Shown here piece by piece: positions 7,300 to 62,224 of a stretch of 64,000 bases of DNA. The DNA lies in assembly GCF_000013345.1 (NCBI RefSeq), contig NC_007777.1, positions 3,906,001 to 3,970,000 on the forward strand, read 5' to 3'. Source of the stretch: Frankia casuarinae. GTDB taxonomy: Bacteria; Actinomycetota; Actinomycetes; Frankiales; Frankiaceae. A program made the translations under genes and the position numbers. The notes beneath the pieces were generated by a model. It saw only the letters and a program-made list of their open reading frames with translations. It was not told where the DNA came from and made no database searches. The stretch's first letter is position 1. Every line of letters starts with the position of its first letter.

Positions 7300-8297
7300 C
7301 AGCCGGCGGCCGGATCGGGCAGAAGGGTGGCCCGCACGGCCGGGGCGGGGCTGACGATCCCGCCGCGCAGCAGCCCGTGCGGGCCGAAAAAACCACCGGG
7401 CAGTGACGCCTGGTCCGGGTTCCACTGGTAGGATCGCACATCCTGATCGGCGCCCCGGGTTGCCGCGGTGACCGTGCCGGTTAGCATCCGCCCGTCGGGC
7501 AGAGCGACCTCGACACGCTCACCGGGGCGCAACGGCCCGGGCTTCTCCGCGACCAGGCTCATCAGCTCATCGCGGCGCCGGAGAACATCACGTTGCCCGG
7601 CGGTCAGCGCCAGCTCCGGGTCGGGACTGGTCAGCATCACCATCAGGCCGCGGACGGTGTCGCTGCTGCGCACCACGATGCCACCGGGAACCTCGATGTC
7701 GTTCCCGGCGACCATCACCCGGTCGTTCACCGACAGCCGGTAGGTGAGCTCCCGCCGCCCCTCGCGGATGTCCCGGCTGAGCGCGAGGACGTCCAGCCGG
7801 TAGACGTCGGACAGGTCCTCGAGACCCCTCGCCTCCCAGCGCAGCAGCACCCGGGAGCATGCCAGGGACTCGGCGTAGGTGACCGGTCCGCGACCGGGAA
7901 CCCGCACCAGATCCGATGCCCGGGAAACCCGGGCTTCATCCGGGCCAGGCGAGTCCGCGCCGCGCGCCGCGACGGTGACACCCTCGGCCTCGGCATCCAG
8001 ACGCACGGTGACCGCCGCCAGGCGCAGGGCCTCGTGTACCTCGTCGCCGAGAGCCATCCCGATCTGCGGTTCCAGCTCCCAGCTCGACGCGGCGGTCACC
8101 GTGCGCGCCGGGACGGTGAACAGCACCCCCGCGTCCGGCGCGGCCGGCCGGTAGGCGGCGACGCACAGCCGGGTCCGCGGGTCGACCCCGACCAGCCACG
8201 CTCCCGACGGCGTCTCGACCACGGCCGGCCGTTCGCGCCGCCGCGCGACGGACACGGCTCGCGGGGTTCCCTGACGCGGACCCGCGGTGGCGATCAT
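7299..8297 (-). CDS. Hypothetical protein (332 aa), paralogue of the downstream 517-aa protein
   Basis: The ATG at 8297 overlaps the stop of the coupling-ATPase gene as ATGA; the frame extends twelve codons further upstream but the overlap start is preferred. Around residue 30 it has a strand-rich segment (ETPSGAWLVGVDPRTRLCVA). The core ELTYRLSVNDRVMVAGNDIE is shared with its neighbour. A C-terminal block, RMLTGTVTAATRG then SYQWNPDQASLPGG, looks like a small beta-barrel module and is also shared. No catalytic motif, signal peptide or membrane helix was seen. It is directly coupled to the VirD4-like gene, so a transfer-related role is plausible but unproven. Confidence 0.7.
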   Translation of the reverse strand: MIATAGPRQGTPRAVSVARRRERPAVVETPSGAWLVGVDPRTRLCVAAYRPAAPDAGVLFTVPARTVTAASSWELEPQIGMALGDEVHEALRLAAVTVRLDAEAEGVTVAARGADSPGPDEARVSRASDLVRVPGRGPVTYAESLACSRVLLRWEARGLEDLSDVYRLDVLALSRDIREGRRELTYRLSVNDRVMVAGNDIEVPGGIVVRSSDTVRGLMVMLTSPDPELALTAGQRDVLRRRDELMSLVAEKPGPLRPGERVEVALPDGRMLTGTVTAATRGADQDVRSYQWNPDQASLPGGFFGPHGLLRGGIVSPAPAVRATLLPDPAAG

Positions 8298-10366
8298 CGG
8301 CCGGTTCCGTTCGACCGGTGTCGGCGGTTCCACAGCCCGCGCACGCGCACCACCCGAACCGCCCGCACCACCCGACCAAACCCCTCACGGGGCGCGGCCG
8401 GCCGCACGCCCTGCGCCGCGGGCCGGGCCGGGGGCGGCTCCCCGGCGGCGAGGGCGAGCAGCGCCGGGTCCCGAAACCAGTAGCGTCCATGCAGGTGCAC
8501 GGGCGGGAGCGTGTTGTGCAGCAGCAACGCCTGCCCCGGCGCCACCTGGCGCAGCAGATGCGCCGGGAGGAGTTCCAGCCTGGTCGGCGCGTCGTTGATA
8601 CCCTGCCGTCCGCCACCCGGCGCGATATCACTGGACAGGCTGCGCGCGGCGACATGCTCCTGCCCGAGCAGCGAGGCGGCGTAGTCCAGGGTCGACTTGT
8701 CCGACAGCCCGGAGAAGAAGACCTTCGTGACCGCGTTGGACACGATGACGTCGGCTTTGCTGCCGTAGGCCGCGTCGATCTGCGCCTTGCTCTGGTAGAC
8801 GAGCATCAGCTGGATGCCCATGCCCGCGCAGGTGGAGATCCGGCCGGGCAGATTCTTCATCGGCCAGTTCCCCGCCTCGTCGATGACGACGAGCAGTGGC
8901 GGGTCCAACGGCTTACCTGTCACCCCGACCCGGGTATACACCGAGCGGATCAGATCATCGACCAGGCCCCCGAGCACCGGCGCCAACCGTTCGGCCCCGT
9001 CGAGATCCGCACACAGATAGACGCTGTTCGACCGCCGCCGCGGCCCGTCCCCCGGCTGCCCGGCGTCACCGAAATCCTCCGTGAACGGATCGCCGTCGGT
9101 GAACGGGTTGTTGTCGGTGAACGGGTCGAGGGCGGTGTCGGGCTCGTCGTCGGGCTCGTCACCGAGCAGCCAGTCCAGGCCGATCTCCGACCCGGCCGCG
9201 GAATACTGCACCGACGGTTCCTGCCACGGCCGGATCATCTGCCGGGCCACGAGGAACACCGACGAGACCTGCTTGGGATCCGTCTTCCACACCGCGCTCA
9301 GACCGGCCAGCACCTGCTCGCCGTCCACCCGGATCGCCGGGTCATCGTGACGGGCGAAGGCCTGGGCGAAACGCATCACCCCGTCGCGGTCCATGCTCGT
9401 CGTCCAACCGACCACCGCGTCCATCCCCAGCCCGGCGGTGGCGGCGACCCAGAACAGCAGGCCGAGAAGGTCCTCACCGGCGGTAGTCCAGAAACTCATG
9501 TCCGATCCGGAGGAGGTCCAGTCGGTGCTGTTCGCGATCGACCGGGCGGCCAGCCGCGCCCCGGCCAGCCCGGTGGACTCCGCCAGCGGCGACCAGGTCG
9601 CCGACAGTTCCCCGGTGACACCGGTAGGGTCGAAGACCCGCACCTGCCCGAGCGCCCGACGCCGGCGCACGGTCGCGCCCAGCAGGTCCGTCTTCACCGA
9701 CAGGGCGATCAGCGGGCCGTCCCACTCCAGGATCGCCGGCACCGCCAACGCCGCGGTCTTCCCGCAGCGGGACGGACCGACGACCAGCACCGCCCCCCGG
9801 TCACCCCGGCGGCGGGCAACCCGCCGGTGCAGCAGCCGCGGCACCGCGTCATCCACCGGCAGGGACGCGTCCTCGGTCGCAAGCAACCGGGTAACGATCC
9901 CGCTCCGGGCCCGACCGAGGATCATCCGGCCCCGGACCGGCCGGCGGACCCACATCGGGGCGATCTCCCACAGCCGGGCGAACCGCGCCTCCGGATCCAG
10001 GCCCATCCGCCGCCGACGAGCCACCCCGACCCGGCCCTGCAGCAGGAAGAACAGCACCCCGCCGCACAGCACCGCGACCGCCATCGGCACGACGCTTCCG
10101 GCCCAGTAGCCCACCGGCCCCGGCAGCAGGACCGCGGCCTCCGCCGGCCAGGCCCGCGCCGGATCACCCGGACGCAGGACGAGACGCGGCACCGCCACCA
10201 CCGCCGCGCCCAACCCGACCGGCAGCGGTTCATGCGCCCCGAACAGCAACGCGGCGGTCTGCGCGCCCGCCCACACCCCGCCCACGCCCGCCAGCACCGC
10301 GACACCGACGAGCAGCAGCGCAGGATCGGGCATCACCCCCGCGCCCGGTTCGCCCCGCGGGCTCAC
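8294..10366 (-). CDS. VirD4/TraG-type coupling ATPase (type IV coupling protein)
   Basis: The 690-aa protein has two N-terminal hydrophobic segments (about residues 16-40 and 88-110), a Walker A motif GPSRCGKT at 197-204, an FDPTG motif soon after, and a Walker B-type segment LLVVIDEAGNWPMKNLP in the C-terminal half. This is followed by a GIQLMLVYQSKAQIDAAYG region typical of TraG/TraD/VirD4 proteins. Members of this family sit in the inner membrane and hand the relaxase-DNA complex to the transfer channel. The GTG at 10366 overlaps the upstream stop (GTGA); an internal Met at 10333 is an alternative. An acidic insertion with DNNPFTDGDPFTEDF repeats lies near residue 415. It is the first clear conjugation gene of this operon and would serve the relaxase at 49805-54367. 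Confidence 0.9.
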   Translation of the reverse strand: MSPRGEPGAGVMPDPALLLVGVAVLAGVGGVWAGAQTAALLFGAHEPLPVGLGAAVVAVPRLVLRPGDPARAWPAEAAVLLPGPVGYWAGSVVPMAVAVLCGGVLFFLLQGRVGVARRRRMGLDPEARFARLWEIAPMWVRRPVRGRMILGRARSGIVTRLLATEDASLPVDDAVPRLLHRRVARRRGDRGAVLVVGPSRCGKTAALAVPAILEWDGPLIALSVKTDLLGATVRRRRALGQVRVFDPTGVTGELSATWSPLAESTGLAGARLAARSIANSTDWTSSGSDMSFWTTAGEDLLGLLFWVAATAGLGMDAVVGWTTSMDRDGVMRFAQAFARHDDPAIRVDGEQVLAGLSAVWKTDPKQVSSVFLVARQMIRPWQEPSVQYSAAGSEIGLDWLLGDEPDDEPDTALDPFTDNNPFTDGDPFTEDFGDAGQPGDGPRRRSNSVYLCADLDGAERLAPVLGGLVDDLIRSVYTRVGVTGKPLDPPLLVVIDEAGNWPMKNLPGRISTCAGMGIQLMLVYQSKAQIDAAYGSKADVIVSNAVTKVFFSGLSDKSTLDYAASLLGQEHVAARSLSSDIAPGGGRQGINDAPTRLELLPAHLLRQVAPGQALLLHNTLPPVHLHGRYWFRDPALLALAAGEPPPARPAAQGVRPAAPREGFGRVVRAVRVVRVRGLWNRRHRSNGTGR

Positions 10367-12959: not shown

Positions 12960-14462
12960 TCAGGCGCAGGCGGACGCAGGATCTCCCGGTCCGGATTCGA
13001 GGGCTCGTCTGGAGGTTTGTACTATCTCGCCGAGGTCACGGACCGTGGGGAGCTCGGGCCATTTACCGTCCATCTGTCTCCACATCTGGCCTGCCTGCTG
13101 GATAACTGTCCGATTGGGTCGTCCGTCCACCGTGAGGAGTGCGTGACGCGCGGCGTCTGCGGCGGCTTCCGGATCCGGTTCGGGGCGGCGGAGGTAGGCG
13201 CGGCAGAGGGCGTTGTGTTTCCCGCCGATCTGCACATAATGGTCGGGGTTGGCCGCGATCTCCAGATCCAGGCCGACACGGGCATGCTGCTCGGCTTGAA
13301 CACCGTCGCCGACGTGGGCGAGCGCGACGGCGAGGAAGCCGTGTATGAACGCGGCGTCCCCCGGGTTCGGGCCGGGCATGACTGCGCCGTCCCAAAGATG
13401 CTCTTGCATGTCGGCCAAGGCGGCGCGGGCGTCGTCGGGTCGGTGCGCGAGCGCCGCGGCCCGTGCCTCGCAGCCGGCGAGGATCGGCAGGGCGAACGGA
13501 TGGGCGCCTTCCCGTGCCTGGGCGGCGATGTCGGCGGCTTCGCTGTACGCGCGGTTGAAGTAGGCGACGCTGGAACGGATCGCTGCGACGGATCCGTCGA
13601 GCAACAGGACGTCGGATCGGCGTGGAGAGCGGGCAGGCAGGAGTTGTTTCGTCTCGTCGGCGTGTTGGCTGGCGACCCGGAGAAGACTGCGTGCGGTGTC
13701 GTCGTCGCCGAGATCGAAGGCGAGCGTACCGAGGTAGAAGGCGTACTGTCCGGCGATCAACGTGAGGCGAGCGCGCACCGGCGGCGAGACACGGCGGTCG
13801 AGGATGCGTTCGATGTTCTGCCATTCCGGGCCGAGGGCGTCCATGAGTTCGCCATGGGGAGTGACGCGGTAGGCGGCGGCGATGCGGTGGATATGCGCTT
13901 CGGCTAGGTCGACACTGAGGGGGTCCGGGTCGGCCCCGGCGATGCTGCGGGAGAGGTCCGCCGCGACCGGGCCGAGTGCCGCGGTCCCCAGCGCCATGGC
14001 GCGTAGGGCGTCGCGTCTGTCCGTGGCTCTCGCCTCCCTTGGGTCACCTACGCCTATGGGCCCGTTGCTTGGTCCTCGTCCAGGCAGCGGGCTCGGTGTG
14101 ATGGGTAGCGTGGCCTGTAGCCCTAACTCCTGCCCTTCCTTCGGGACGCTGCTTTGCGGGGACGGCTGCGCCTTGTCCCGTCGGGGCGGTTCGGCGCCGA
14201 GACGTCGCGCCCGCTTCTCTCTGTGTGCCTCATCCCGAAGGTGACGAATCCTCCCGTTGCAACCGAACACGACGTCGAATGCGTCGGCGAGGTCCGGCGA
14301 TGGTACCTCACGGCCGTTGACTGCCCGGGAAACTTGCTGGCGAGGGAATCCTGTCCGCTCGGCCAGCCGCGTCCTGTTGGTACCAGATTTCTTGATCAAT
14401 TGTTGGAGTAGGGCCACCAGCTCGTCCAAGGTGTCGTTTCGCTGCCGCTCAGCCTCCAACAC
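12960..14462 (-). CDS. XRE-family HTH regulator with C-terminal TPR-like region
   Basis: This is a protein of about 500 aa. Residues 10-75 form an XRE-type helix-turn-helix (LIKKSGTNRTRLAERTGFPR then QQVSRAVNGREVPSP). Residues 150-500 form an Ala-rich helical region with paired-helix TPR-like patterns (AHIHRIAAAYRV, GQYAFYLGTLAFDLGDDDTA, HGFLAVALAHVGDGVQAEQHA). This is a common architecture in Streptomyces and Frankia regulators that lie next to biosynthetic clusters. The GTG at 14462 is chosen because GGGAGGAAG precedes it; a GTG at 14510 is possible. It is convergent with the primase gene and upstream of the lanthipeptide region, so it may regulate that cluster, which is inference. Confidence 0.8.
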   Translation of the reverse strand: MLEAERQRNDTLDELVALLQQLIKKSGTNRTRLAERTGFPRQQVSRAVNGREVPSPDLADAFDVVFGCNGRIRHLRDEAHREKRARRLGAEPPRRDKAQPSPQSSVPKEGQELGLQATLPITPSPLPGRGPSNGPIGVGDPREARATDRRDALRAMALGTAALGPVAADLSRSIAGADPDPLSVDLAEAHIHRIAAAYRVTPHGELMDALGPEWQNIERILDRRVSPPVRARLTLIAGQYAFYLGTLAFDLGDDDTARSLLRVASQHADETKQLLPARSPRRSDVLLLDGSVAAIRSSVAYFNRAYSEAADIAAQAREGAHPFALPILAGCEARAAALAHRPDDARAALADMQEHLWDGAVMPGPNPGDAAFIHGFLAVALAHVGDGVQAEQHARVGLDLEIAANPDHYVQIGGKHNALCRAYLRRPEPDPEAAADAARHALLTVDGRPNRTVIQQAGQMWRQMDGKWPELPTVRDLGEIVQTSRRALESGPGDPASACA

Positions 14463-14613
14463 CGTCTCTTCCTCCCGCCGCCGGTTCACGGGTGCAACAG
14501 ACCGGTGCACCCCCTGAACCGGCCCGATGCGATCTGGCCCTGATCTGGTGCGCAGTGTGTCATGTCCTTACCGGCGGATGTGCCGACCGGCACCCGGAGG
14601 CCAGGGAGGATCC

Positions 14614-16052: not shown

Positions 16053-18305
16053 TCACCCACCTGCTTCCCGTCCGTCTAGTACGTCGAGGGCCTGAACCAG
16101 CACGGTCGTGGCGGTCTGGACTGATGCGAGCAGGTCGTCCCGGCTTGCTCCAGGAATCGACCCTGCGTCCAAGCCGGCTCGCGCGACGTACGCCGAGAGC
16201 TCGCCGGTCTGGGTCGATGTCATCCGCGCCCGGCAGACCGGGTTGCCCAGTAGTTCCCGGGCGACGAAGGCGTCCGCGGAATGCTCGGCCATGTCGATCA
16301 GCTCAGCGCACTGGAGATCGATCCCCTCGTTGACTGCCGCAGATGAGGCGAGGTCGACTGCGGTCAGGCCAAGTCGGAGATGGAACATCGTTGTTGGCCG
16401 GTCGCAGGAGAAACGAGCGGACCGGACCGCACCGAGCAGGGCTTCGAGGTCTATGTTGTCCCGCCGAGCGGCCCCGATGTTGATGTAAGCGCGAAGGCAT
16501 GCCGCTACGGCGGTTTCCCAGGGCTGGCTCACCACGCTGCTGTCAATAAGGGCTAGTGCCGGATCGGTGTGCCCGCTGCGGACGTGGGCGATGATGCGTG
16601 CCTGGCGGGATTCTCGGAGCATTTCCTGGGCATCGTCGTATCGTGCTGCGTGCGCTGCTGCTTCTTCCCAGCGGCCGGCGGCCACCAGGTTTCGGGTGCC
16701 ATCGTCGAGCATAACGACACGCATCCATTGAGCGGCTTTTGGGTACTCGCTATCCGCCGTGATGAATCCGCGGAAGGAGATGCGCTCGCCGTGGATCAGG
16801 GCGTCGCTGCCTGTGCGGGCTGCCCGTTCGATCTCGTTCAGCTCGTGGTGGGCACCGCCGGGATTTCCGGCCCGGCGGGTAAGACGGGTCAGGTTCACCA
16901 GCGGCTGTAGTGCGGCTATGATCGCGCTGCCAGATAGCGGCAGTGCGGCCTGGAATATGAGGAACTGGCGTCGGCACAGGTCAACTGCGAGGTCGGGAAC
17001 ACCGCAGTCGGCCGCAATCAACGCCGACAGGTTCCACACCGTGCAAGCGAGATTGATTCGGTCGTGGGGGTCGGTCGGCTCGTGGCAGGACTCCGCGCAC
17101 TCGCGTACGCTGCGCACCCGAGCTTCGAGGTCTGTGCAACGAAATCGGTGCTGCTCGACAAGAGGAAAACGGGCCACGGCGCGTTCCGCGTCGCCATCGA
17201 CCGTCAATGTCGGCCGCCCCCGCTGCATCGTTGTCCCGATACGTCGCATCGCTGGCAGGGGCTTGGTCGCTCCGGTGGGCGGGCCCAGGATGGCGGCACG
17301 CGCCGCCCAGGCCAGCGTGCTCTGTGTTCGGCTTGGCAATCCGAGGCGGTTCCAGTGAAAGATCGTCAGGTAGCTTGCCACGTCTCGGAGGCCCCGCTCC
17401 AGCGTGCCCGTGCGAGCTGCGCTGCCGAGGCTCTGCCCGGCTTGCCGGAAGGCGTCGGCCCAGCCCGCCGCATAGGCGAGAGGACCGTCTGCGTGCAGCA
17501 GCGGCCCGTCCGGAGTCGTGTCGACGAGCATCAACCGTTTGAGGTCGCTGATCATCGCCGTCAGCTTCGAGGTGGGGACGTCGGCGGGCAGGGGTCGTTC
17601 CAGAGTGACCCGGTGCCAGACGTCGCCTTGTTCGTACCATTCCAAGCCCGCTGCGCGCAGCAAACAGGTGCTCAGGAGCAGCGACAGTTCACGTCGGCCG
17701 AGCTCGGCGTCGGGATTACGGCTCAAATTCATGATGGAGTTGCTGTCAGCGCAGAACAGCCTGTGGGCGATGTCGATGCCGACCCCGCCGCCGAAAGCCG
17801 CTGTCTCTGCCTCGTATGTTCCTGTCCACCATCGGGCGATCCTGCCCTCGGTGACGAGCTCATCGAGGGCGGCCGCGGTGCTTGCCTTCATCACAGTTCC
17901 GGTTGGTCCTGGTCGGAGGCGAATCCTCCAGCAGGGATATTTCCGCATGAACCACCATGCAGCGACGATGCCGCAGTTTCCGGCACGATGGAGTAGTGGC
18001 GCGATGTAACGGGCAGCGGCCTGTTCGGCGGCGTGCCAGTCGGTGAACTCGATGTAGATCTGCCACCAGTCGGAGGCGACCTGTTGGTGAAGGGCCTGTC
18101 GTCCGGACCGCTGGTAGATGGCGGCGGCCTCAGCCAGTTCCGCTGGCTTCATGCGCTCGTCTCCGGCGGCCTCGTTCAGCGGTATCCCGGTCAACAGCTT
18201 CAGAACGGCGCGCTCGACATCCCTGTCGACGAGCGAGGCGCCTTCGGTTCCGCTTTCTTCTTCCGTTGCTCCGGGTGTCAGTCGATCAGTAGACACGCAT
18301 CCCAT
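16053..18305 (-). CDS. Thiopeptide-type bacteriocin biosynthesis (SpaB_C-like) protein with C-terminal helical extension
   Basis: The N-terminal half (about residues 75-345) carries hallmarks of the SpaB_C/thiopeptide-type family: WWQIYIEFTDWHAAEQ, WWFMRKYPCWRIRLRP, then TYEAETAAFGGGVGIDIAHR and FCADSNSIMNL. In lanthipeptide and thiopeptide pathways this domain eliminates glutamate from glutamylated Ser/Thr. The remaining ~400 residues are Ala/Arg-rich, helical and repeat-like (RWEEAAAHAARYDDAQEML), unlike typical members, which end near residue 350. The start at 18305 (ATG) lies just upstream of the ancestral lanC stop at 18278; a GTG at 18296 is an alternative. In the uninterrupted cluster the gene was probably coupled to lanC. 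Its transcription is now probably separated from lanB by the IS. Confidence 0.85.
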   Translation of the reverse strand: MGCVSTDRLTPGATEEESGTEGASLVDRDVERAVLKLLTGIPLNEAAGDERMKPAELAEAAAIYQRSGRQALHQQVASDWWQIYIEFTDWHAAEQAAARYIAPLLHRAGNCGIVAAWWFMRKYPCWRIRLRPGPTGTVMKASTAAALDELVTEGRIARWWTGTYEAETAAFGGGVGIDIAHRLFCADSNSIMNLSRNPDAELGRRELSLLLSTCLLRAAGLEWYEQGDVWHRVTLERPLPADVPTSKLTAMISDLKRLMLVDTTPDGPLLHADGPLAYAAGWADAFRQAGQSLGSAARTGTLERGLRDVASYLTIFHWNRLGLPSRTQSTLAWAARAAILGPPTGATKPLPAMRRIGTTMQRGRPTLTVDGDAERAVARFPLVEQHRFRCTDLEARVRSVRECAESCHEPTDPHDRINLACTVWNLSALIAADCGVPDLAVDLCRRQFLIFQAALPLSGSAIIAALQPLVNLTRLTRRAGNPGGAHHELNEIERAARTGSDALIHGERISFRGFITADSEYPKAAQWMRVVMLDDGTRNLVAAGRWEEAAAHAARYDDAQEMLRESRQARIIAHVRSGHTDPALALIDSSVVSQPWETAVAACLRAYINIGAARRDNIDLEALLGAVRSARFSCDRPTTMFHLRLGLTAVDLASSAAVNEGIDLQCAELIDMAEHSADAFVARELLGNPVCRARMTSTQTGELSAYVARAGLDAGSIPGASRDDLLASVQTATTVLVQALDVLDGREAGG

Positions 18306-18390
18306 CCAGAGCGCGGCGCGACAGTATGCGCGGCAGTGTGCAGGGTGAGGGCCGTGCCGGCTGTCCCGTTCAGGAGCCCGGGGCCGGCAA
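18278..18390 (-). pseudogene. 3' remnant of lanC cut off by the IS element
   Basis: Read on the minus strand and joined to the upstream part of lanC across the 8-bp target duplication, this segment continues the same frame. It gives 34 residues: PGLLNGTAGTALTLHTAA, then HTVAPRSGWDACLLID and a TGA at 18278-18280. This matches the usual LanC C-terminus (GLLxGxAGxALxLHTAA ... GWDACLLLD type). It no longer has a start codon. Removing the IS and one copy of the duplication would restore a protein of about 413 aa. Confidence 0.9.
18383..18390. repeat. 8-bp target-site duplication, left copy (GCCGGCAA)
   Basis: GCCGGCAA directly precedes the left inverted repeat of the IS. The identical sequence follows the right inverted repeat at 20028-20035. 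This is the expected scar of a simple transposition event. Confidence 0.93.
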
Positions 18391-18410
18391 CCAGGGTGAC
18401 CCGCAAAGTC
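18391..18410. repeat. IS left terminal inverted repeat
   Basis: The 20-bp sequence CCAGGGTGACCCGCAAAGTC is complementary to the right end at 20008-20027. The transposase stop codon (18409-18411) lies at its inner edge. Confidence 0.93.
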
Positions 18411-19692
18411 ATTGATGCAGGTCAGCGGGGTTGTCGAGAGTGAGGATGGCCAGGAGCAGGGCGTTGTCGTGTCGGATTCTGCGGATGGTCGGGGCGATGC
18501 GGTTATGGCCAGCGAGGCGAATCAGCCCGATGATCAGGTTACGGAGTGTGGTCATGATGCGGGGCAGTGGGCCGGTCCGAACCCGCGAGGCATCCTCACG
18601 GAACGTCACATCGCGCACCCAGTGGACCTTGTTCTCGATCGTCCAATGCCCTCGGGCGTAGCCCGCGAGATCAGCGGGTGTGACCGCGTCGAGGGTGAGG
18701 CTCGTCAGGACGTGGACCGTGACAGTGCTCGGGATCGTCCGGGTGACCCGGGCCCGGCCCGTGCCGGTGGTCACGGTCCGCCGGACATGACGGCGGATCC
18801 GCGCCACGGTGCGGGCGTGGGGATAGCGGGCACGGATCGCCTCGCTGGCCTGGGCCAGCTGGATGGTGCGTCGTTCGAACCGTCCATGGGCCCTGCCCTC
18901 GGCGCTGTGCCCGATCGGGATCTTCGTCCAGTCGGTCGCCTGGTGGCAGTCGACCGACAACGCCGGGGTGTTCGCCTTCACCGTGAACACGAAGTGCGCT
19001 CCCAGCTCGGTGACGATCAGGTCGGCGTGGGCGCGGGTCGTGTGCAACGCATCAGCGGTCACCACCACCCCATCCAGCGGATCATGGGAATGCAGTTCGC
19101 GGAGCAGCGGTGCGAACGCGGTGACCTCGTTCGTCTTCGCGCCGACCTCATGCTCGGCGAGCACCACACCCGTGCCGTGTTCGGCGACCGCGAGCAGGTG
19201 CGGTGCCCGCCCCTCAGGCCCAGCCGCGCCACGCAGGGTCTTCCCGTCGACCGCGACCACCCGCCGCCCACCACCACGGGCCTGGCGGGCGCGGGCCGCG
19301 GCGAACATCCCGACCGCCCTCGCCAGCGCCGAGCTGTCCACCGCGGACAGGACCCGGATCATCGTGTCCACCGACGGTGCCTGCGGCTGCCCGGTCACCG
19401 GATGGACCCGCGCCCCGAGAGCGGTCAGGACCTGCGTCGGGGCGTGCGCAGCCCAGGCCGCGATCTCCTCCACCGACTTCTCCCCCGCGGCGACCGCTGC
19501 GGCGGACAGTCCCAGGATCACCGGGAGCCGGTGACGTATCCCTCGCGGGTCCCGCGGGTCAGGCACCCCGGCGAGTACGTCGGCGAGCCCCTGCACCTCA
19601 CCGCCGTGCGCCCCCAGGACCCGCAGCGACCGCCGCATCCGGACCAGCTGCCCCGACCCGGCCTGTCCGAGATCGGTGGGAGTGACGGGCAT
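18409..19692 (-). CDS. ISAs1-family transposase (427 aa)
   Basis: The protein has the ISAs1/H-repeat layout: an N-terminal DUF4338-like part (LADVLAGVPDPRDPRGIRH), then a DDE-type core with VVAVDGKTLRGA (first Asp), VVVTADALHT (second Asp) and WTIENKVHWVRDVTFREDAS (Glu). It ends LIRLAGHNRIAPTIRRIRHD, typical of the family. The length of about 430 aa is normal. The ATG at 19692 is used; a TTG lies 18 bp upstream. All three acidic residues are present and no frameshift was seen, so the enzyme is probably functional. It mobilises only its own element, which lies antisense to nothing and in the same orientation as lanC. Confidence 0.93.
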   Translation of the reverse strand: MPVTPTDLGQAGSGQLVRMRRSLRVLGAHGGEVQGLADVLAGVPDPRDPRGIRHRLPVILGLSAAAVAAGEKSVEEIAAWAAHAPTQVLTALGARVHPVTGQPQAPSVDTMIRVLSAVDSSALARAVGMFAAARARQARGGGRRVVAVDGKTLRGAAGPEGRAPHLLAVAEHGTGVVLAEHEVGAKTNEVTAFAPLLRELHSHDPLDGVVVTADALHTTRAHADLIVTELGAHFVFTVKANTPALSVDCHQATDWTKIPIGHSAEGRAHGRFERRTIQLAQASEAIRARYPHARTVARIRRHVRRTVTTGTGRARVTRTIPSTVTVHVLTSLTLDAVTPADLAGYARGHWTIENKVHWVRDVTFREDASRVRTGPLPRIMTTLRNLIIGLIRLAGHNRIAPTIRRIRHDNALLLAILTLDNPADLHQ

Positions 19693-20007
19693 GCGAGACT
19701 GGACCGGCAACGGGGCTCCCTACGGCTGGTGATCTAGGCAATCCCCGTCCTACCGGGACCCCGTTGCCTCACCGCAGCCACCCTCACCGTGGTGGCCCGC
19801 CGTTGTTCCCCCGGACCCCACGGCCCCACCGCCCCACCCACCCCACCGGCTGTCACAGAACGTCATCGGTGGCGTTTCCGCCGGCGCCGGAACCCACCCT
19901 CACACGCGCTACTCACAGCGACGAAACAGCAGCCGGGCCCGGATCCTCACACCACCACCGGCCCCAGCCCCCCGCACCCCGTCTCACACCGTCTACCTGC
20001 ACAAACA

Positions 20008-20027
20008 GACTTTGCGGGTCACCCTGG
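20008..20027. repeat. IS right terminal inverted repeat
   Basis: GACTTTGCGGGTCACCCTGG is the exact reverse complement of the left end. It supplies the stop codon (TCA at 20019-20021 on the plus strand) that now ends the truncated lanC. Confidence 0.93.
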
Positions 20028-21164
20028 GCCGGCAACGGGCTCGAAGTCAGCGAATCGAACCAGGTTGTCAGCCAAGCACTGCAATTGGTCGGCAAGTACC
20101 GGTGTTATGGCATCGTGAGCTGCGCGCCAGACTGTCTGATACACACCGGCCCAACCGTGGCACAGTCCACCATCTTTGATCCGCCCCAGCTGAACGGGAT
20201 CGTTGAGACACTGGAAAAGCGCCTGTTCATACTTCTGCTGGCGGCGACCGTCACCGAGAGCGAGCGCCGCGAGCTGGCCCGCGCGGGCAAGCCCGGGAGT
20301 GCCGTAACACCAACTGGGACGCGCCGGGCCGGGCTGGCTTGTTCTGCCCTGACGCAGGTCGGGCAGAGTGATCCATTCCGGCCACCAGGGTCCGGCTTCG
20401 CCGTCCTGCTGCCAGGCGTCGAGCCAGGCGCAGACGTTTATGATCGTATCGTGCTGTCCGTCGACGACGACACCACGCCGCATCGCCCGACTGAGCAAGG
20501 ACAGCGGCCCGGCTATCCCGTGAGCGAGGCCCAAGTTACTGTGCCCACCGGGGTAGGCAGGGGAGGCGCGGCGGTGCGGATCGTGGTTGACCCACCAGCC
20601 CGGCAGCGTCTGCCCGTCGATCCGATGCGGCTTAGACAAGGCGACGAGGTAGGCGAGAACCCGCTCCATTGCGCTGCCCTGGGGAGCGCGACGCAGTAGC
20701 AGCGCGCCGATCCCGGTCAGACCGAAAAACACGTCGTACTCGCGGAACCCTGGCAGTCTCCCGGCCGCGATGCGCTCCATGGCTGCGTCGGCTCGGTGGT
20801 GGGCGATCGCGGCGACGTGCCCGTCGATGGCGGCGAGGGCGCCGCGGTAGCGGCTCGGGTCGCTTCCTGCCGCGGCGTCCAGCATGAAGGTGATCGCTGG
20901 GGCGCCGAGGTACAGGCCGGTGTTGTCTGTGATGTTGGCCGGCGCGGCGACCGCGCTGCGGATCCAGCGGTCGGCCTGCTGCCACGTGCCGAGCCCGGCG
21001 TGGGCGCGTTCGATGTGGAGCAGGGCGATGCCCGCGCTGCCTTTCGTGAGGGACTGCGGTGCCCAGGGTTCGCTCTCGGGCGGGGGCTCGGGCAGAGCTA
21101 GCCGCTCGGCGTAAAGATCAACGGTCTGCGCGATTCCCGGAGGGGTGCTCGTTGAGGTCGCCAC
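20019..21164 (-). CDS. lanC: LanC-like lanthionine synthetase, truncated by the IS
   Basis: LanC cyclases add cysteine thiols to dehydrated Ser/Thr to make lanthionine rings, using zinc held by Cys, Cys and His. All three ligands are visible here: C286 (WCYGTPG), C335 and H336 (LCHGWAG), close to NisC C284/C330/H331. The GTG at 21164 follows the lanB stop without a gap. The reading frame runs into the IS at 20027 and stops after two IS-derived codons (Pro-Gly), giving 381 aa. The missing 34 residues lie at 18278-18390. They form the last inner helix of the toroid (GLLNGTAGTALTL) and the GWDACLLID tail, so folding and activity are probably impaired. A partly active enzyme cannot be excluded, because the zinc site is upstream of the break. 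Confidence 0.92.
   Translation of the reverse strand: MATSTSTPPGIAQTVDLYAERLALPEPPPESEPWAPQSLTKGSAGIALLHIERAHAGLGTWQQADRWIRSAVAAPANITDNTGLYLGAPAITFMLDAAAGSDPSRYRGALAAIDGHVAAIAHHRADAAMERIAAGRLPGFREYDVFFGLTGIGALLLRRAPQGSAMERVLAYLVALSKPHRIDGQTLPGWWVNHDPHRRASPAYPGGHSNLGLAHGIAGPLSLLSRAMRRGVVVDGQHDTIINVCAWLDAWQQDGEAGPWWPEWITLPDLRQGRTSQPGPARPSWCYGTPGLARAGQLAALALGDGRRQQKYEQALFQCLNDPVQLGRIKDGGLCHGWAGVYQTVWRAAHDAITPVLADQLQCLADNLVRFADFEPVAGPG
20028..20035. repeat. 8-bp target-site duplication, right copy (GCCGGCAA)
   Basis: Identical to 18383-18390. In lanC it encodes the Ala-Gly pair just before the break. Confidence 0.93.
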
Positions 21165-24100
21165 TCATGTCTCCGTGCGGTGGGCGGTGTGGCGCAGCGC
21201 GCAGGCCCGTGCGAGCCGGCCGGTGGCTCGTTCGACAGCCGGGTCGACACCGACAGCGCGATTGTGGTGCAGGTGCAGGAGCGATCGCAGGACCGGCATC
21301 GGGTCGCGTTGGTCAGCGAGGGCATCTCGGTACGCCGCCAGCGCACTGGCGCGGGTGCCCCAGGCAGCCAGGACATCGCGTCCGCCGGGCAGGGATTGCA
21401 GCCGCGTCCAACTGCCGTGCGGGTCGGCTAGTTCGAGTGTCTGTTGCCGTAGCGCGGGGTCCAGCCTTCCGTGTTCTTGGCGGAGTTCGCGGATCAGCCA
21501 GTCCAGCCCGTCTTGTGGGGACCCGGCGTAGCTCACTGCCAGGTCGACCAGGCTGGCAGCGGCCAGGGCCTGGGGATGCACGCCTGCGCGGATGGATGCG
21601 CTGATCTGGGCGATGGCGCAGGCCGAGTCGGCGGCGAAGACGTCCTGGACGTGGTCCAGGGCTGGGCTGTGTCCGTAACGTCCCGACTGGGGGTCATAGG
21701 TGGTGAGCGAGACGTGCGCGAGCAGGTGTTGTCGGCGCAGATCGTCGGCCCACCGGGCAAGGCATGCGGCGGCAGGGCCGTATGCGGAGGGCTCCGATAG
21801 CCAGAGGTATACGGCGAGGTACTGGTCGATCTCTGGTCTGCGCATTTCGCGGTTCCGCCGAAACCACCAGCGCGGCCTGTGGACGCCGAAGGCGTCGATC
21901 ATGTGGGGAAGGTGTTGCGTCAGGAGTTCCTCGACGCGCGCCGGATGCCCGTACAGGTGCGCGGACACGACCGTGGACTCGCCGGGGAGATGCCCGGCGT
22001 CGACGGCCACGACTCGCCGTGTGCTGATGCCTGGCCCGGGATCTGTGGCGGGCTGCGGGTCCAAGACCATGGGGATCAGCACCTCGTGGGCACGCCCCAG
22101 CCAGGCCACGTCTTCCAGGGTCGACGTCTCGCGCAGTTCCAGGCGGTCAGCGCGTTCCAGCCGGGTGCGCAGCAGGAGACGGTGAAGCGGGTGGCCGAGG
22201 TCTACCGGCTGCCGCCGGTCGTGCTCCACCATCGCGACATGGCCGGGAACCCACCACCGGCTGCACCAGTCTTCCAGCGCGGCGTCCCACTCGGCCGTCG
22301 AGGCGCCGCGGCCGGGAAGTTCACCGGCCGCTAGCAGCCACCGTGCCGGAGACAGCACGGTGCGCCGGTATCGAACGCGTGGAAGGTAGGGAAGCTGTGC
22401 CGCCGCGCCGAAGTGGAATGCCTTGTACACGGCGGCTCGGGCGGTGGTGATCTCAGCGAGGAACCTCGCGAGCGGCGGGGTGTGCACGCCGGCCTCCAGG
22501 GCGTGGGCGACCCGCGGTTCGACGTACCGGCCGGTGGAGATCTGGGCGAGGTAGAAGCGGCGGTCGTCCACGCTGACCGCGAGGTCCGTCAGGGGGATCA
22601 GGCGTTCGTCGCCGTCGCGGTATTCGGCCACGGGGATCACATGTGTCAGGAGCTGCTGCGTGCGCGCGACGTTCTCGTTGCGCCGCTTACGCGGGGCGAA
22701 GGAGAGCTGCGCGGGGATCGCGTCGGTGCCGGCCGCAGCGAAGGTGCCCGCGATCAGGTCGCGGCCGTCCGCTGGCAGCAGGTGGGCGTAGCGGCCAGCC
22801 ATGCTGCTGCCGGGCCGTGGCGTGCCGGTCACCGCCACCGTGAACCGGCCGCGGGCCAGCGCCTCAACGGACATGGAGCGGATCTCCACGGCCACCTCGA
22901 CCCGAGCAGGCAGGTGCACGTCGGCCGGATCGCTGACCGCAAGCTCCTCGATCATCTGATCAGTCAGGACGATTTCGCCGCCGCCGGACAGCGTGGCCCG
23001 TTGGATCAGCGCCAGTAGTTTCTCGTCACGTTCACTCACCTGCCGAGCGGCACGCCTGCGCGCCGAGCCCAGATAGTCGGCCGGAACTCCCAGGCCACTG
23101 TCGGAGATCAGGTCCATGACCGGCACGAAGGCGCCCGTCCCGTAGCGGGTCCGGAACCGGGAGTGGTAGTCCCGCCAGGCGGGATAACCCAACGGATACG
23201 GTGAGAGTCGATAGAGGACCTGGACGGCGTTGCGGGCTTCCTGGGCGACCTGGTCCGGTATGTGAACGTCGCACTCCAGGATCGTGTCGACGATCATGGG
23301 TACCTCGGCGGCCTCGCTCAGCGCGTGCATCTGCTCGGTCACGGCCGACCTTGACCCGAGAACCTGGCTGGTGGCCGACACCTCCTTGTGGATCTCGAAC
23401 ATCGAACGGACAAGATCGCTAACCTCCGGAATGCTGTGGGCGTCAACGGCCTCCAGCTGAGCGCACGCATGACCGAGTGCATCCAGGCAGGTCATCGGCG
23501 CTGACAGATTGCTCAGCAGGATTCCTTGGTCGAGCAGACCCGTGAGCATCTCGTCGATCCGCTGCGCGGGGGCACTGGGGAAGCGCTCCATGAGCAGTGT
23601 TCGTAGCTCGCTGAACGTGACCGGTTTCCGCGTGGCCTCCAGCGCGGCGCAGACCGGTCGACTGTGGCGCACGGACACCTCGATCGGCGCCAACTCGTCC
23701 GCTATGCCATCCGGCGTCGGCGCGGGCGCTCCGAAGCGGTCACCGCGCACCAACCCGGCGCCATTGGCGACCAGCGACAGCCGCTCCCGCAGCGTCGGAC
23801 ACCGTTGCAGGCGCGCGAGGACATCACCGAGCCAGCCCGCGTCAACCCGGGCCTCGACCCGGTGATCGCGACCCCACCGCACCTTCGCCCCAGCATCGAT
23901 CCGGGCCAGCGCGACTCCGGCGAACAGCCCAAAGGGAGTGGGACGGCGCTGCCACCGAAGCAGATAGGACGCTACGGAAAGCACGGTCCGGCGAACCACT
24001 CGCACGTCATGACCACTGGAGGTCAGAACGGTGTCAACCTGCTGAATCAGCGCGGGACTCGCCTGAGCGATCGCCGCGCGAATTTCCTCGCGCCGCCACA

Positions 24101-24248
24101 TCGCCGACAGCCACGCCGACCCTTCTTCCGCGGCGTCGGCACCGAACAGGTCCAGGTCCGCTGGCAAGTCCAATCCGCCCGGATCGGTGCTCGCACGTAG
24201 TAGTGCTGCACCGGCCCACTGGTACATCGCTGGAGATCTCACCGCCAT
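21165..24248 (-). CDS. lanB: LanB-type lanthipeptide dehydratase, full length (1027 aa)
   Basis: Class I dehydratases glutamylate Ser/Thr of the precursor with Glu-tRNA and then eliminate glutamate. The N-terminal ~750 residues match the glutamylation domain (YLLRWQRRPTPFGLFAGVAL, YPLGYPAWRDYHSRFRTRYG, FVPVMDLISDSGLG, RFYLAQISTGRYVEPRVAHA). The C-terminal part has the elimination-domain signature PRWWFRRNREMRRPE ... YLAVYLWL ... WADDLRRQHLLAHVSLTTYD. The ATG at 24248 follows GGGAGG; a longer frame upstream overlaps the precursor gene and is rejected. The stop directly abuts the lanC start. Having a complete LanB as well as a separate SpaB_C-type protein (16053-18305) is typical of FxLD clusters. 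No frameshift was seen. Confidence 0.93.
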   Translation of the reverse strand: MAVRSPAMYQWAGAALLRASTDPGGLDLPADLDLFGADAAEEGSAWLSAMWRREEIRAAIAQASPALIQQVDTVLTSSGHDVRVVRRTVLSVASYLLRWQRRPTPFGLFAGVALARIDAGAKVRWGRDHRVEARVDAGWLGDVLARLQRCPTLRERLSLVANGAGLVRGDRFGAPAPTPDGIADELAPIEVSVRHSRPVCAALEATRKPVTFSELRTLLMERFPSAPAQRIDEMLTGLLDQGILLSNLSAPMTCLDALGHACAQLEAVDAHSIPEVSDLVRSMFEIHKEVSATSQVLGSRSAVTEQMHALSEAAEVPMIVDTILECDVHIPDQVAQEARNAVQVLYRLSPYPLGYPAWRDYHSRFRTRYGTGAFVPVMDLISDSGLGVPADYLGSARRRAARQVSERDEKLLALIQRATLSGGGEIVLTDQMIEELAVSDPADVHLPARVEVAVEIRSMSVEALARGRFTVAVTGTPRPGSSMAGRYAHLLPADGRDLIAGTFAAAGTDAIPAQLSFAPRKRRNENVARTQQLLTHVIPVAEYRDGDERLIPLTDLAVSVDDRRFYLAQISTGRYVEPRVAHALEAGVHTPPLARFLAEITTARAAVYKAFHFGAAAQLPYLPRVRYRRTVLSPARWLLAAGELPGRGASTAEWDAALEDWCSRWWVPGHVAMVEHDRRQPVDLGHPLHRLLLRTRLERADRLELRETSTLEDVAWLGRAHEVLIPMVLDPQPATDPGPGISTRRVVAVDAGHLPGESTVVSAHLYGHPARVEELLTQHLPHMIDAFGVHRPRWWFRRNREMRRPEIDQYLAVYLWLSEPSAYGPAAACLARWADDLRRQHLLAHVSLTTYDPQSGRYGHSPALDHVQDVFAADSACAIAQISASIRAGVHPQALAAASLVDLAVSYAGSPQDGLDWLIRELRQEHGRLDPALRQQTLELADPHGSWTRLQSLPGGRDVLAAWGTRASALAAYRDALADQRDPMPVLRSLLHLHHNRAVGVDPAVERATGRLARACALRHTAHRTET

Positions 24249-24319: not shown

Positions 24320-24517
24320 TCAGGACGGGTCGTCGGCGAACGAGTTGCAGGAGCTGTCGTTGCCCGAGCAGGTGTTGCCGCATCCGTCATCGGTGGGGCA
24401 GTCCCCCATGATCGGGCCGTACGCCACGAGCACCCGTACATCCAGCGTGTACTCGTCGTCCTCGCCAGGCCGTTCAGCCAACGCCGTGGCGCTTCCAGAC
24501 AGCGAAACCTCTGACAT
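24320..24517 (-). CDS. lanA: FxLD-type lanthipeptide precursor (65 aa)
   Basis: The ATG at 24517 has AGGAGG nine bases upstream; a Met three codons earlier would sit on the ribosome site. The leader carries EYTLDVRV at residues 22-29, a variant of the FxLD motif (here Tyr instead of Phe). The core is Cys/Ser/Thr/Asp-rich: C40, C46, C50, C57 with T42, T49, S51, S55, S56, S59. It includes CPTDDGCGNTC, the typical FxLD core. The Asp-Gly pair at 44-45 is the likely target of the PIMT-like methyltransferase. The core probably starts after MG at 38-39, but no protease gene was recognised nearby. It sits between the methyltransferase and lanB, as expected for the family. Confidence 0.9.
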   Translation of the reverse strand: MSEVSLSGSATALAERPGEDDEYTLDVRVLVAYGPIMGDCPTDDGCGNTCSGNDSSCNSFADDPS

Positions 24518-24522
24518 ATGGA

Positions 24523-25818
24523 TCATCCTCCTGCTCGGCGGGATGCTGCGCCCCGGCCGGCCGCGACGCTCGCCGCTCCCGGCCAGGAGATCGTGATCCG
24601 GCTGTGCTTCTTGTCGATGACGCGGCCAGCCGGCAGCTGGTCATCGGCGGTGCCTGCGGGGTCAACGCGGAACTGTGGCGAGCTGTGGCGGTGTTCCCGC
24701 CCCCAGACCTGGAGCTGCTCGGCGACCTGTTCGGCCAGCTCGGACGCGCCCGGACCGAAGGCATGCACACCTAACTCGACGTCCACCGAGTCCGCCGCAC
24801 CGCGCGTCGTGACATAGGCGAGGGTGTCGTCGTCGACGACGGCCACCGCGGCGGAGTGACTGCCCGGTGGGGAGAGCAGACCCGTGTCCAGCTTTCTGTC
24901 CAGCACAACGCGACAGAAGCCCGGCAGCACGGTGGCGAGCCACATCTGCGTACCGGCCCACGGTTCGAAACGGCCGATCGTGACCCCGCTCCAGACCTCC
25001 ACCCGCGGCGCGTCGAATACGCCTTCCAGCAGGCCCGGATCGGTCGGGGGCCCCTCCTCGAAGCGCAAGGTGATCTCACCCTCGCGTAGGACCAGCAACG
25101 TGGTCTGGTGCGCTCCGGCGCCCTGGATAGGCACGAAGCCGAACAACCGGGACGCCCGACTGAGCAAGTACTCGTTGGCTCGCTCGAAGGTGATCACACG
25201 CGACAGGCCCCGCAGCTGCAACGGCACCGCCAGACGACCGCCCTCGGCCAGCTGAGCCACCCAAGCCGGCGGAACGTCCCACGCACCGACCGTGACCAAA
25301 ATACGGTCATAAGGGGCGTGCTCAGGCACACCGAACTCGGCGTCGGCGAGCACAACGTTCACCTGAGGGTAGCCGACCTGCGCGAGAAGATGGCGCGCCC
25401 GGTCGATGACGTCCTTGTCGATGTCGACCGTGGTGACCTGACCTGCCGGACCGACGAGCTCGGCGATCAAGGCAGCGTTGTACCCCCCAGAGCCGATCTC
25501 CAAGATCCTCATGCCGGGGGTGATCGCAGCCTGCTCCAGCATGTACGCCTGGACCTGCGGAGCGGAAACCGAGCTCACAGAACTTCCAGCGTCGTCGCGC
25601 TTCGTAACTACTCCGTTGTAAAGCTGGTAAGCCTCCTCCAGCTCCACCCCCGGTGCGAAGGCTTCCCGACGGACCTTGCGCATCGCGGCCTCGACCGGCC
25701 GCGAGGTGATCGTGCCCTCGGCAAGAAGATCGTCAACCATCTTCCTGCGCAGCTGCGCTGCGCGATCGAGGCCGGAGACGTCGCTGTTCGGCTCTACGGG
25801 TGAAGACACGTCGGTCAC
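24523..25818 (-). CDS. Protein-L-isoaspartate O-methyltransferase-like enzyme of the FxLD system
   Basis: The 431-aa protein has the PIMT fold: SSVSAPQVQAYMLEQAAITP, then the SAM-binding loop MRILEIGSGGYNAALIAELV, then VTTVDIDKDVIDRA and YDRILVTVGAWDVPPAWVAQ. A C-terminal extension of about 190 aa is characteristic of the methyltransferase, FxLD system subgroup. Related enzymes in lanthipeptide pathways methylate an Asp side chain of the modified peptide, giving succinimide and then isoaspartate. The GTG at 25818 is used, with AAGGAAG upstream. The gene is first in the minus-strand cluster, and its stop is five bases before the precursor start. Promoters for it and for the divergent gene must lie in 25819-25942. 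Confidence 0.92.
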   Translation of the reverse strand: MTDVSSPVEPNSDVSGLDRAAQLRRKMVDDLLAEGTITSRPVEAAMRKVRREAFAPGVELEEAYQLYNGVVTKRDDAGSSVSSVSAPQVQAYMLEQAAITPGMRILEIGSGGYNAALIAELVGPAGQVTTVDIDKDVIDRARHLLAQVGYPQVNVVLADAEFGVPEHAPYDRILVTVGAWDVPPAWVAQLAEGGRLAVPLQLRGLSRVITFERANEYLLSRASRLFGFVPIQGAGAHQTTLLVLREGEITLRFEEGPPTDPGLLEGVFDAPRVEVWSGVTIGRFEPWAGTQMWLATVLPGFCRVVLDRKLDTGLLSPPGSHSAAVAVVDDDTLAYVTTRGAADSVDVELGVHAFGPGASELAEQVAEQLQVWGREHRHSSPQFRVDPAGTADDQLPAGRVIDKKHSRITISWPGAASVAAGRGAASRRAGG

Positions 25819-25942
25819 ACGATCTTCCTTGTCGTCGGCGGGTGCGGTGGCGAGCCGTATGGCCGTCAGCGGCTCGTTGGCTCGTCCGGTTAAGAATGCC
25901 GGCCACGATCACGATCGACCAGGCCAGCAGCTACCCGTGTCG

Positions 25943-27235
25943 ATGGTCATCGACCGACTATCTGGACATATCCTGGACGCTGTGGTGGTCATCCCTTCAC
26001 TGTCCGTCGATGAGGTTAAAGAGAGTCTGAAGCGCCTCCGCCAAGGACATGGCCTGGCTCGCCCCACCGCGCTTCCTACCGTGCTGCCTGAGCTGCTCCG
26101 GGCCCGCCTGGCAGACGGCAGGGTGAGCGAGCCTGCATCGGCGCAGGAGGTCACGCTGCTCGTGACCGCGTTCCGGCAAGCCGTCGAGGGGCTGGCCGAC
26201 GACGAGCGCCTGTGCGTCGAGGTCGACTTCAACCTGAGCGCCGAGCATCGGTACCCAACGCTCACCGAGCGACAAGAGTCGCTCGCGCGCCAGCAGAGGT
26301 GCGCGGCGAAGACCGTTCGTCGCCGCGCCGACCGAGCGCTGGACACCCTCGCCTACATGCTGTTGACGAACGGGCCATCGACCGTCACGTCGACGGTCAG
26401 AAGCCCGGCAACGATCTCGTCCCCTGAACAGGATCGGTCGCCGGTCGATCACGGCGAGCCCTGGGGCGAGGACCTGAGAGCGTTCTGGCGACTCTCCCAC
26501 GGGGCACGCATCGATATCGTCTGCTCGGAGATCCCCGAGGATGAGCGCCCAGAGTACGCCTCGCCAGCCGACCGTAACTACCTCCGTTATGCGAAGTTCG
26601 CGGATCTTGACACGTTGATCTACCTGCGGACCCGATTCGCCCGGTTAGCCCCGACCGTGACGATTCGAGACTTCGCCCCCTCGGAGTACTTCGACACCCA
26701 GGCCGATGTCCTCGTGGTCGTCGGCGGACCGCCGTGGAACGCCAAGTACCGCGAGTTTCTCCCGCGGCTGCCGTTCTTCTTCGAGCCCCATCCGCTGGGC
26801 GCGGACGATCCCCTGGTGGTACCCGGCATGAACGGGCTGGTTCTCGGTCCACGCTGGACCGAGCGCAACGAACTGCTGGAAGATCTCGCCGTCTTCACCC
26901 GGCTCACGCTCGCCCAGGGCACCACCGTCTTCCTGCTCGGAGGCTGCCTCACCCTCGGGGTACTCGGTGCCGCCCGTTGCCTACTGGAGGCCGAGCGCGG
27001 TGCACGCAGTTCCCGCTACATCACCGAGCATGTCAACGACGCAGACTTCGTCCTGGTCACCGAAGCCCGGCGGATCGGCGGCCTCACCGATGTAGCCGAC
27101 CTGACCCGGGTCCCTCCGCTGCTCCTGCTCGCCCGCAGCAACAACGAACCCTTCGCCGTGCACGTCGACAACTCCGACCGCTACCTTCAAGATCAGTCCG
27201 GAACGGAGGTCCACCACATTGATCACTCCTGCTGA
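25943..27235 (+). CDS. Unknown protein (430 aa) with a possible nucleotide-fold C-terminal domain, divergent from the RiPP cluster
   Basis: I do not recognise the family. The ATG at 25943 is used; a GTG at 25937 is in frame. Residues 1-150 are helical and contain RRADRALDTLAYMLLTNG, preceded by QRCAAKTVRRRADRALDTLA, which resembles a DNA-binding or sigma-like helix pair. The C-terminal half alternates strands and helices: RIDIVCSEIPEDERPEY, ADLDTLIYLRTRFARLAPTV, ADVLVVVGGPPWNAKY, GTTVFLLGGCLTLGVLGAAR, NDADFVLVTEAR. These look like a Rossmann-like or SLOG-type sensor fold. Its end overlaps the GT25 gene, so the two are co-translated. It could be a regulator or a new tailoring partner. Confidence 0.7.
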   Translation: MVIDRLSGHILDAVVVIPSLSVDEVKESLKRLRQGHGLARPTALPTVLPELLRARLADGRVSEPASAQEVTLLVTAFRQAVEGLADDERLCVEVDFNLSAEHRYPTLTERQESLARQQRCAAKTVRRRADRALDTLAYMLLTNGPSTVTSTVRSPATISSPEQDRSPVDHGEPWGEDLRAFWRLSHGARIDIVCSEIPEDERPEYASPADRNYLRYAKFADLDTLIYLRTRFARLAPTVTIRDFAPSEYFDTQADVLVVVGGPPWNAKYREFLPRLPFFFEPHPLGADDPLVVPGMNGLVLGPRWTERNELLEDLAVFTRLTLAQGTTVFLLGGCLTLGVLGAARCLLEAERGARSSRYITEHVNDADFVLVTEARRIGGLTDVADLTRVPPLLLLARSNNEPFAVHVDNSDRYLQDQSGTEVHHIDHSC

Positions 27236-62134: not shown

Positions 62135-62224
62135 TCAATATGCTGTCCTACCTGGCGTACTACAGCAGATTCCTGAAGCCCACTACCGCCGTCATTTCAC
62201 CAACTGCCCCCAGGAGTGCAATTC

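Follow-up and report, generated by a model that had tools for sequence, protein, structure and literature searches.

Two described systems stand closest to the locus analysed here, the coi cluster of Streptomyces coelicolor A3(2) (CoiA1, CoiB, CoiC, CoiSA; PMC9486935, PMC9011353) and the olv cluster of Streptomyces olivaceus (OlvA, OlvB, OlvC, OlvSA; PMC13001092). In olv, the methyltransferase was reported to methylate an Asp of the cyclised peptide, which leads via an aspartimide to 70-80 % isoaspartate (PMC13001092). For the coi peptide, the rings Thr43-Cys47, Thr50-Cys55 and Thr57-Cys51 have been described (PMC9486935). Like our locus, the coi cluster combines LanB and LanC of class I with a methyltransferase of the PIMT type, and it has an extra glutamyl lyase of the syn type next to the full-length LanB. 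It differs in that its syn-lyase is fused to the methyltransferase, whereas ours stands alone as a 750-aa protein, one half of which is a helical repeat; further differences are that our LanB lacks the equivalents of Arg784 and Arg786 and that our lanC is cut by an insertion element. The olv cluster likewise has a PIMT-type enzyme acting on a conserved core Asp beside LanB and LanC, but is described as lacking an extra lyase (PMC9486935). With FxLD-family lanthipeptides as a whole (TIGR04363/TIGR04364; families I 1-4 in PMC7268733; the TxDGC set in PMC10787088), the locus agrees in core motif and methyltransferase family, and in leader motif apart from a Tyr for the Phe, which is within the variation seen. 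Clusters I-III of Frankia sp. CcI3, with O-methyltransferases, were reported in 2010, two of them with previously unannotated lanA genes (PMC3091789). The chemistry proposed below is the known chemistry of this known family.

The window, i.e., the whole stretch of 64,000 nucleotides that was analysed, corresponds to positions 3906001-3970000 in the single contig (5,433,628 bases) of a genome which we take to be that of Frankia casuarinae CcI3. On an apparent integrative conjugative element, it very probably carries the five genes of a class I lanthipeptide pathway of the olv/coi kind (FxLD, 'lanthimiditide'), which is interrupted here. Gene identities and gene order were read from the sequence by family matches, and the five genes lie on the minus strand. 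The PIMT-like O-methyltransferase of the LanSA type (24523..25818, 431 aa) scored 537.6 bits against TIGR04364 "methyltransferase, FxLD system" (NCBIfam, cut-off 320) and 140.1 bits against PF01135. Its gene is located directly upstream of lanA, and its stop overlaps an ATG at 24526 that is in frame with lanA. The precursor gene lanA (24320..24517) starts with the ATG at 24517, ends with the stop codon at 24322-24320 and encodes the 65-aa peptide MSEVSLSGSATALAERPGEDDEYTLDVRVLVAYGPIMGDCPTDDGCGNTCSGNDSSCNSFADDPS; the alternative start at 24526 yields 68 aa. An AGGAGG sequence abuts the ATG at 24526 directly and is placed 9 nt ahead of the ATG at 24517. The precursor matched TIGR04363 "FxLD family lanthipeptide" (NCBIfam) with 48.7 bits (E 5.4e-13, cut-off 30). 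With both families above their cut-offs, the original prediction was supported in that the peptide is a class I lanthipeptide precursor of the FxLD type and its neighbour a PIMT-like enzyme. Downstream of lanA follows lanB for the dehydratase (21165..24248; PF04738 753.5 bits, PF14028 102.2 bits). Its reading frame is open up to 24383, a start ruled out by the position at which the alignments of relatives begin, residues 44-46 in L024-L026 and L031-L033; some other relatives align further upstream. The LanB start is probably near 24248. The fourth gene, lanC (20019..21164; PF05147 118.5 bits), has a 3' end truncated by an insertion, and the fifth encodes the 750-aa lyase protein (16053..18305; TIGR03891 187.7 bits, cut-off 48.45). 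Judged by these matches, the set of PIMT, LanA, LanB, LanC and extra lyase is of class I, and LanB, LanC and a PIMT homologue stand beside the precursor as in lanthimiditide clusters, here with a truncated LanC.

When genome contigs were scanned with the methyltransferase, 30 related loci emerged. Eleven of them had all five genes in the same order according to tblastn (L024, L025, L027-L034, L038), of which nine are distinct, as L024/L025 and L031/L032 look like copies. In L030, LanB and LanC were each in two pieces; a third copy of L024, L026, presented four genes before the stretch ends. Seven loci (L039, L041, L043-L046, L049) had the four enzymes and no precursor match at the tblastn threshold used, L047 had the PIMT with weaker LanB and LanC, and the remaining ten were without a LanB match. 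The nearest loci were located in Amycolatopsis, Prauserella and Lentzea (methyltransferase 71 %, precursor 80 % identity).

By homology to these systems, we infer the ring positions, the target Asp44, the order of reactions and the loss of LanC activity. LanB would glutamylate Ser and Thr of the core, and its own lyase domain together with the separate syn-type lyase would eliminate glutamate to form Dha and Dhb. LanC would then close the thioether rings. By analogy to coi, these may be Thr42-Cys46 around Asp44, Thr49-Cys57 and Ser59-Cys50, with Cys40 spare; the Ser-derived ring has no methyl stereocentre for a syn-lyase to set. The PIMT-like enzyme would methylate Asp44 inside the Thr42-Cys46 ring, and the ester would collapse to an aspartimide that hydrolyses mostly to isoaspartate. 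In the strain of the window, a dehydrated or glutamylated, poorly cyclised peptide without Asp modification would be expected, unless another LanC substitutes.

The interruption is caused by an element of the ISAs1 family (18391..20027; NF033564 165.8 bits, cut-off 70) with perfect terminal inverted repeats of 20 nt (18391-18410 and 20008-20027) and a transposase reading frame on the minus strand (18409-19710). It is flanked by an 8-bp target duplication, TTGCCGGC on the minus strand, at 20028..20035 on the lanC side and at 18383..18390 on the far side. The last codon and the stop of the truncated lanC come from the inserted element. Beyond it, the severed 3' end of lanC, the missing C-terminus, is still an open frame on the minus strand (18278..18390, part of a 44-aa reading frame, 18412..18278). 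The truncated LanC has 44 residues after the CHG motif, compared to 75-76 in seven relatives; the loss comprises about 33 C-terminal residues that are conserved in relatives. A 32-residue piece of the severed tail was 87 % identical to the end of the LanC of L031 (over 31 residues), 81 % to that of L038 and 74 % to that of L024. The complete LanC of L038 could be aligned to NisC up to chain residue 398, the LanC of the window only up to 332. The lost tail holds the motif GxxxGxxGxxLxL and a Trp, conserved in 73 % and 92 %, respectively, of 66 LanCs (PMC3091789). The insertion also breaks the overlap of the lanC and lyase genes seen in L024 and separates the lyase gene from the operon. In the genome, the transposase gene is present in at least 15 full-length copies, the one in the window included, that were 100 % identical after rounding (40 of 237 candidates scored); thus the insertion is probably recent.

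OlvSA modifies cyclised OlvA, not the unmodified or only dehydrated peptide (PMC13001092). With lanC cut, Asp modification in this strain would therefore be doubtful unless another LanC helps. The isoaspartate or succinimide product foreseen for the locus agrees with the known chemistry of the family, but becomes doubtful in this strain. The locus is probably impaired, and the strain probably does not make the product in its predicted form. Rather unlikely is a cluster that still works and delivers the isoaspartate product, either with a truncated LanC that suffices or with cyclisation by the LanC of another cluster. Some activity of the truncated protein is possible, given that WCYG, CHG and AHG are retained, WCYG and CHG being motifs of the zinc site; the lost part, however, is conserved and corresponds in the alignment to the C-terminal region of NisC. 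For a complementation in trans, eight PF05147 matches above cut-off were present at about seven places in the genome, that of the window included. A complete tail follows the matches at 1.34, 2.16 and 2.39 Mb, so three other clusters of the same genome are possible donors, but their LanCs are only 45-51 % identical to the LanC of the window. A fourth cluster at 4.22 Mb is in pieces, methyltransferase and lyase at 5.34 Mb occur without a LanB or LanC match, and weaker LanC-like matches lie at 0.24 and 4.78 Mb. Near 1.345 Mb (L080:9042-11162), a complete FxLD-type methyltransferase stands beside a second one that is in two pieces in different frames. The cluster at about 4.22 Mb (L084:3646-8984) is decayed to fragments of LanB, LanC and methyltransferase. 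As the pathway is best read as interrupted in this strain, a search for the product is better begun from relatives with a complete lanC, in Lentzea and Amycolatopsis.

The fifth gene encodes a glutamyl-lyase domain (residues ~71-341) followed by a helical-repeat, TPR-like C-terminal half. Syn-lyases give D-allo-L-methyllanthionine and are also known as standalone proteins beside a full LanB; their marks are the loss of Arg826 and of the His, a conserved Lys and the retention of Arg784/786 (PMC9011353; PMC9486935). In CoiSA(ED), K46 precedes R51 and R53 (PMC9486935). Eight aligned members of the lyase family have in common K122, R127, R129, A170 and N319-R320. In 23 lyase sequences, which take in two pairs of copies, the equivalents of Arg784 and Arg786 of NisB were always kept, and the place of Arg826 (Ala170) was always Ala. 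Lys122 was likewise present in 23/23, a few residues before the two Arg, and may be the counterpart of that K46. The place of NisB His961 in H-x-x-x-N-R, four residues before N319, was Ile in 21 and Leu in two. The register between lyase and NisB was taken from a profile alignment with an E-value of 0.46 that is in register with the fold match, and the position of H-x-x-x-N-R from PMC3091789. In its active-site residues, the fifth gene product fits the published standalone syn-glutamyl lyases.

Homology searches with the 750-aa protein reached less far: phmmer against solved structures gave one chance match only, and its profile reached NisB and MadB at E 0.46 only. The predicted structure (eight sequences, mean pLDDT 81, pTM 0.52) matched LanB lyase domains with Z-scores of 15.9-17.7 over 226-263 residues and thiopeptide-type cycloaddition enzymes (thiopeptide cyclases) with 14.3-16.0. 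An assignment to the latter was dropped: the gap in Z is too small, and the active-site residues fit syn-lyases. For the C-terminal half, Pfam gave nothing above cut-off (TPR_14 with E 0.075 in one of eight members); its structural neighbours were TPR and similar helical repeats with Z about 9-11, weak for helical repeats.

Arg784 and Arg786 of NisB bind the glutamate carboxylate (PMC9486935). The place of Arg786 was occupied by Y, F or I in nine distinct clusters (the window, L024 with its copies L025 and L026, L027-L029, L031 with its copy L032, L033, L034 and L038), and Arg784 was lost in eight of these, L033 retaining it. Both arginines were retained in twelve other LanBs, four of them from the same genome and one of these four in a decayed cluster. 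Arg826 was kept in eight of the nine clusters and the His in all nine; over all LanBs, the His of H-x-x-x-N-R was in place in 24/25 sequences, with L030, out of frame there, not counted. The missing glutamate-binding arginines are possibly new. They were not met in our literature searches, which had other aims, and may be in print elsewhere. If the loss has consequences, the dehydratase would be split: LanB would mainly glutamylate, elimination would be carried out by the syn-lyase with its TPR-like half, and the product would contain isoaspartate together with Thr rings that are D-allo-L throughout. Such a functionally split dehydratase would be hidden in an apparently whole LanB. We consider it unlikely, because NisB R784A still yields seven dehydrations (PMC4341554), CoiSA(ED) tolerates the loss of either Arg, and a coi LanB without lyase activity leads to an incompletely cyclised peptide (PMC9486935); furthermore, the kept Arg826 and His argue for a LanB lyase site that is still active somehow. 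Elimination by both lyases, as proposed above, is preferred, and the arginines lost in this clade offer a direct test of two lyases sharing the work in one pathway.

The original prediction regarded the leader segment YTLD and the core segment TDDG as distinguishing features. Counted from the start at 24517, YTLD, where the family motif has F-x-L-D, covers residues 23-26 (24440..24451), the core motif TDDGC residues 42-46 (24380..24394) and the Asp44 codon 24386-24388, all on the minus strand. Comparison of 29 precursors argued against either segment being unusual. Besides the precursor of the window, this set comprised 14 small open reading frames picked by eye behind the methyltransferase gene within L024-L049. 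Another 14 came from other searches and were selected by a pattern of two alternatives, one of them [TS]-x-D-[GNT]-C, so that for these 14 the motif is in part presupposed. Duplicates and near-duplicates were left out (L012, L025, L026, L032, L054, L056, L063, L065, L066), and L013-L015, L021, L023, L057, L058, L060, L061 and L067, which the pattern did not pick out, stayed outside. So did L030, which has a tblastn match of 50 % yet no small open reading frame there. After the methyltransferase of L041 and L045 no small precursor reading frame was found. The first leader-motif position was F in 21, Y in three, W and L in one each, and without a match in three precursors; Tyr recurred in a second precursor of the same genome (YDLD, 1.344 Mb) and in L049. 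Variation to LxLD is already in print (PMC12710340), and the Tyr is best read as ordinary variation. The core motif T-x-D-[G/N/T]-C occurred in 29/29, with G in 21, N in seven and T in one at its fourth position. In the literature, TxDGC is described as the core motif that most precursors from 1305 such clusters share (PMC10787088; PMC13001092), and a DGCG motif in actinobacterial LanA peptides was noted in 2010 (PMC3091789). What had been taken as new is the normal signature of a widespread family.

The suggestion that the Asp before Gly is modified fared better. TDDGC includes the conserved Asp of the TxDGC core. Within the selection limits given above, the position of Asp44 was Asp in 29/29 precursors, and the residue before it was variable (D in 17, S in six, N and G in three each), so that, by comparison with its relatives, the modification is likely to target the second Asp, Asp44. 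A different Asp chemistry, in which Asp43 is targeted or the aspartimide or methyl ester persists in the final product, appears quite improbable. Related lasso peptides and graspetides have been isolated with the aspartimide kept, but OlvA is converted to 70-80 % isoaspartate (PMC13001092), and 12 of the 29 precursors have S, N or G in place of Asp43, which speaks against it as the target.

The predicted 65-aa peptide itself, with EYTLDVRV, TDDG (residues 42-45) and four Cys (40, 46, 50, 57), is present, and its gene, first described without a strand, lies on the minus strand; the observation was confirmed and is more than chance. Its GC content by codon position was 0.58/0.55/0.82. The third codon positions were the most changed ones against all four orthologues compared (L024, L038, L028, L027; 21, 22, 28 and 24 changes). 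Synonymous codon differences exceeded non-synonymous ones against L024 (18/12), L038 (18/12) and L028 (20/16), with the reverse in L027 (14/24), the most distant of the four. The codon-position GC and the prevalence of third-position changes mark lanA as a coding gene. Precursor orthologues with 80 % identity were found by tblastn in L024, L025, L026, L028 and L038. In a search of 58 relatives, 13 had a match at E <= 0.001, the same genome among them; the top match outside it (59 % identity) came from another genus of the family. Five of 12 other genomes of the genus matched, at best with E 5.4e-6 and 49 % identity. TIGR04363 was found in seven of 396 genomes sampled from the phylum, six above cut-off, including this genome. 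With a curated family above cut-off, orthologues at the same place in relatives, codon bias and third-position changes, a mere chance reading frame can practically be dismissed.

The cluster is flanked on either side by transfer genes as in T4SS-type elements: a coupling-protein gene (8294-10366; T4SS-DNA_transf 96.9 bits) and a TrwC relaxase gene with helicase domain (49805-54457; TrwC 184.3 bits). A secretion ATPase gene lies at 43543-44892 (T2SSE 68.5 bits), and no tRNA gene was found inside the window. The element also carries genes for Cas3-like, Cas5, Csd1 and Cas7 proteins at 57334-63112, presumably a type I-C CRISPR-Cas system. A T4SS-type element of CcI3 with a lantibiotic dehydratase-like protein and CRISPR-Cas parts, Fcci3350, was reported in 2011 (PMC3218068). 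It is probably the element observed here, matched by content rather than by coordinates; if the genome is CcI3, the locus is probably already in print. The passages concerned in PMC3091789 and PMC3218068 are silent on the lanC interruption, the Asp chemistry and the syn-lyase of this locus.

Further genes in the vicinity were considered. GT25, hexapeptide-transferase and hydrolase genes at 27-30 kb were rejected as cluster members, being present in 0/30 loci (tblastn, E 1e-3). A 519-aa open reading frame on the plus strand (25676-27235) is divergent from the methyltransferase gene and probably starts beyond the overlap with it; it had no match in Pfam and NCBIfam, and in only three of the 30 loci was it detected by tblastn, each time antisense to the methyltransferase. 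Among the open reading frames scanned, none was identified as a protease or exporter gene of the cluster. A helix-turn-helix protein (12960-14510, minus strand; PF13560) may be a regulator; relatives of it occur near the 1.34 Mb cluster of the same genome (31 %) and near the methyltransferase of L036 (40 %).
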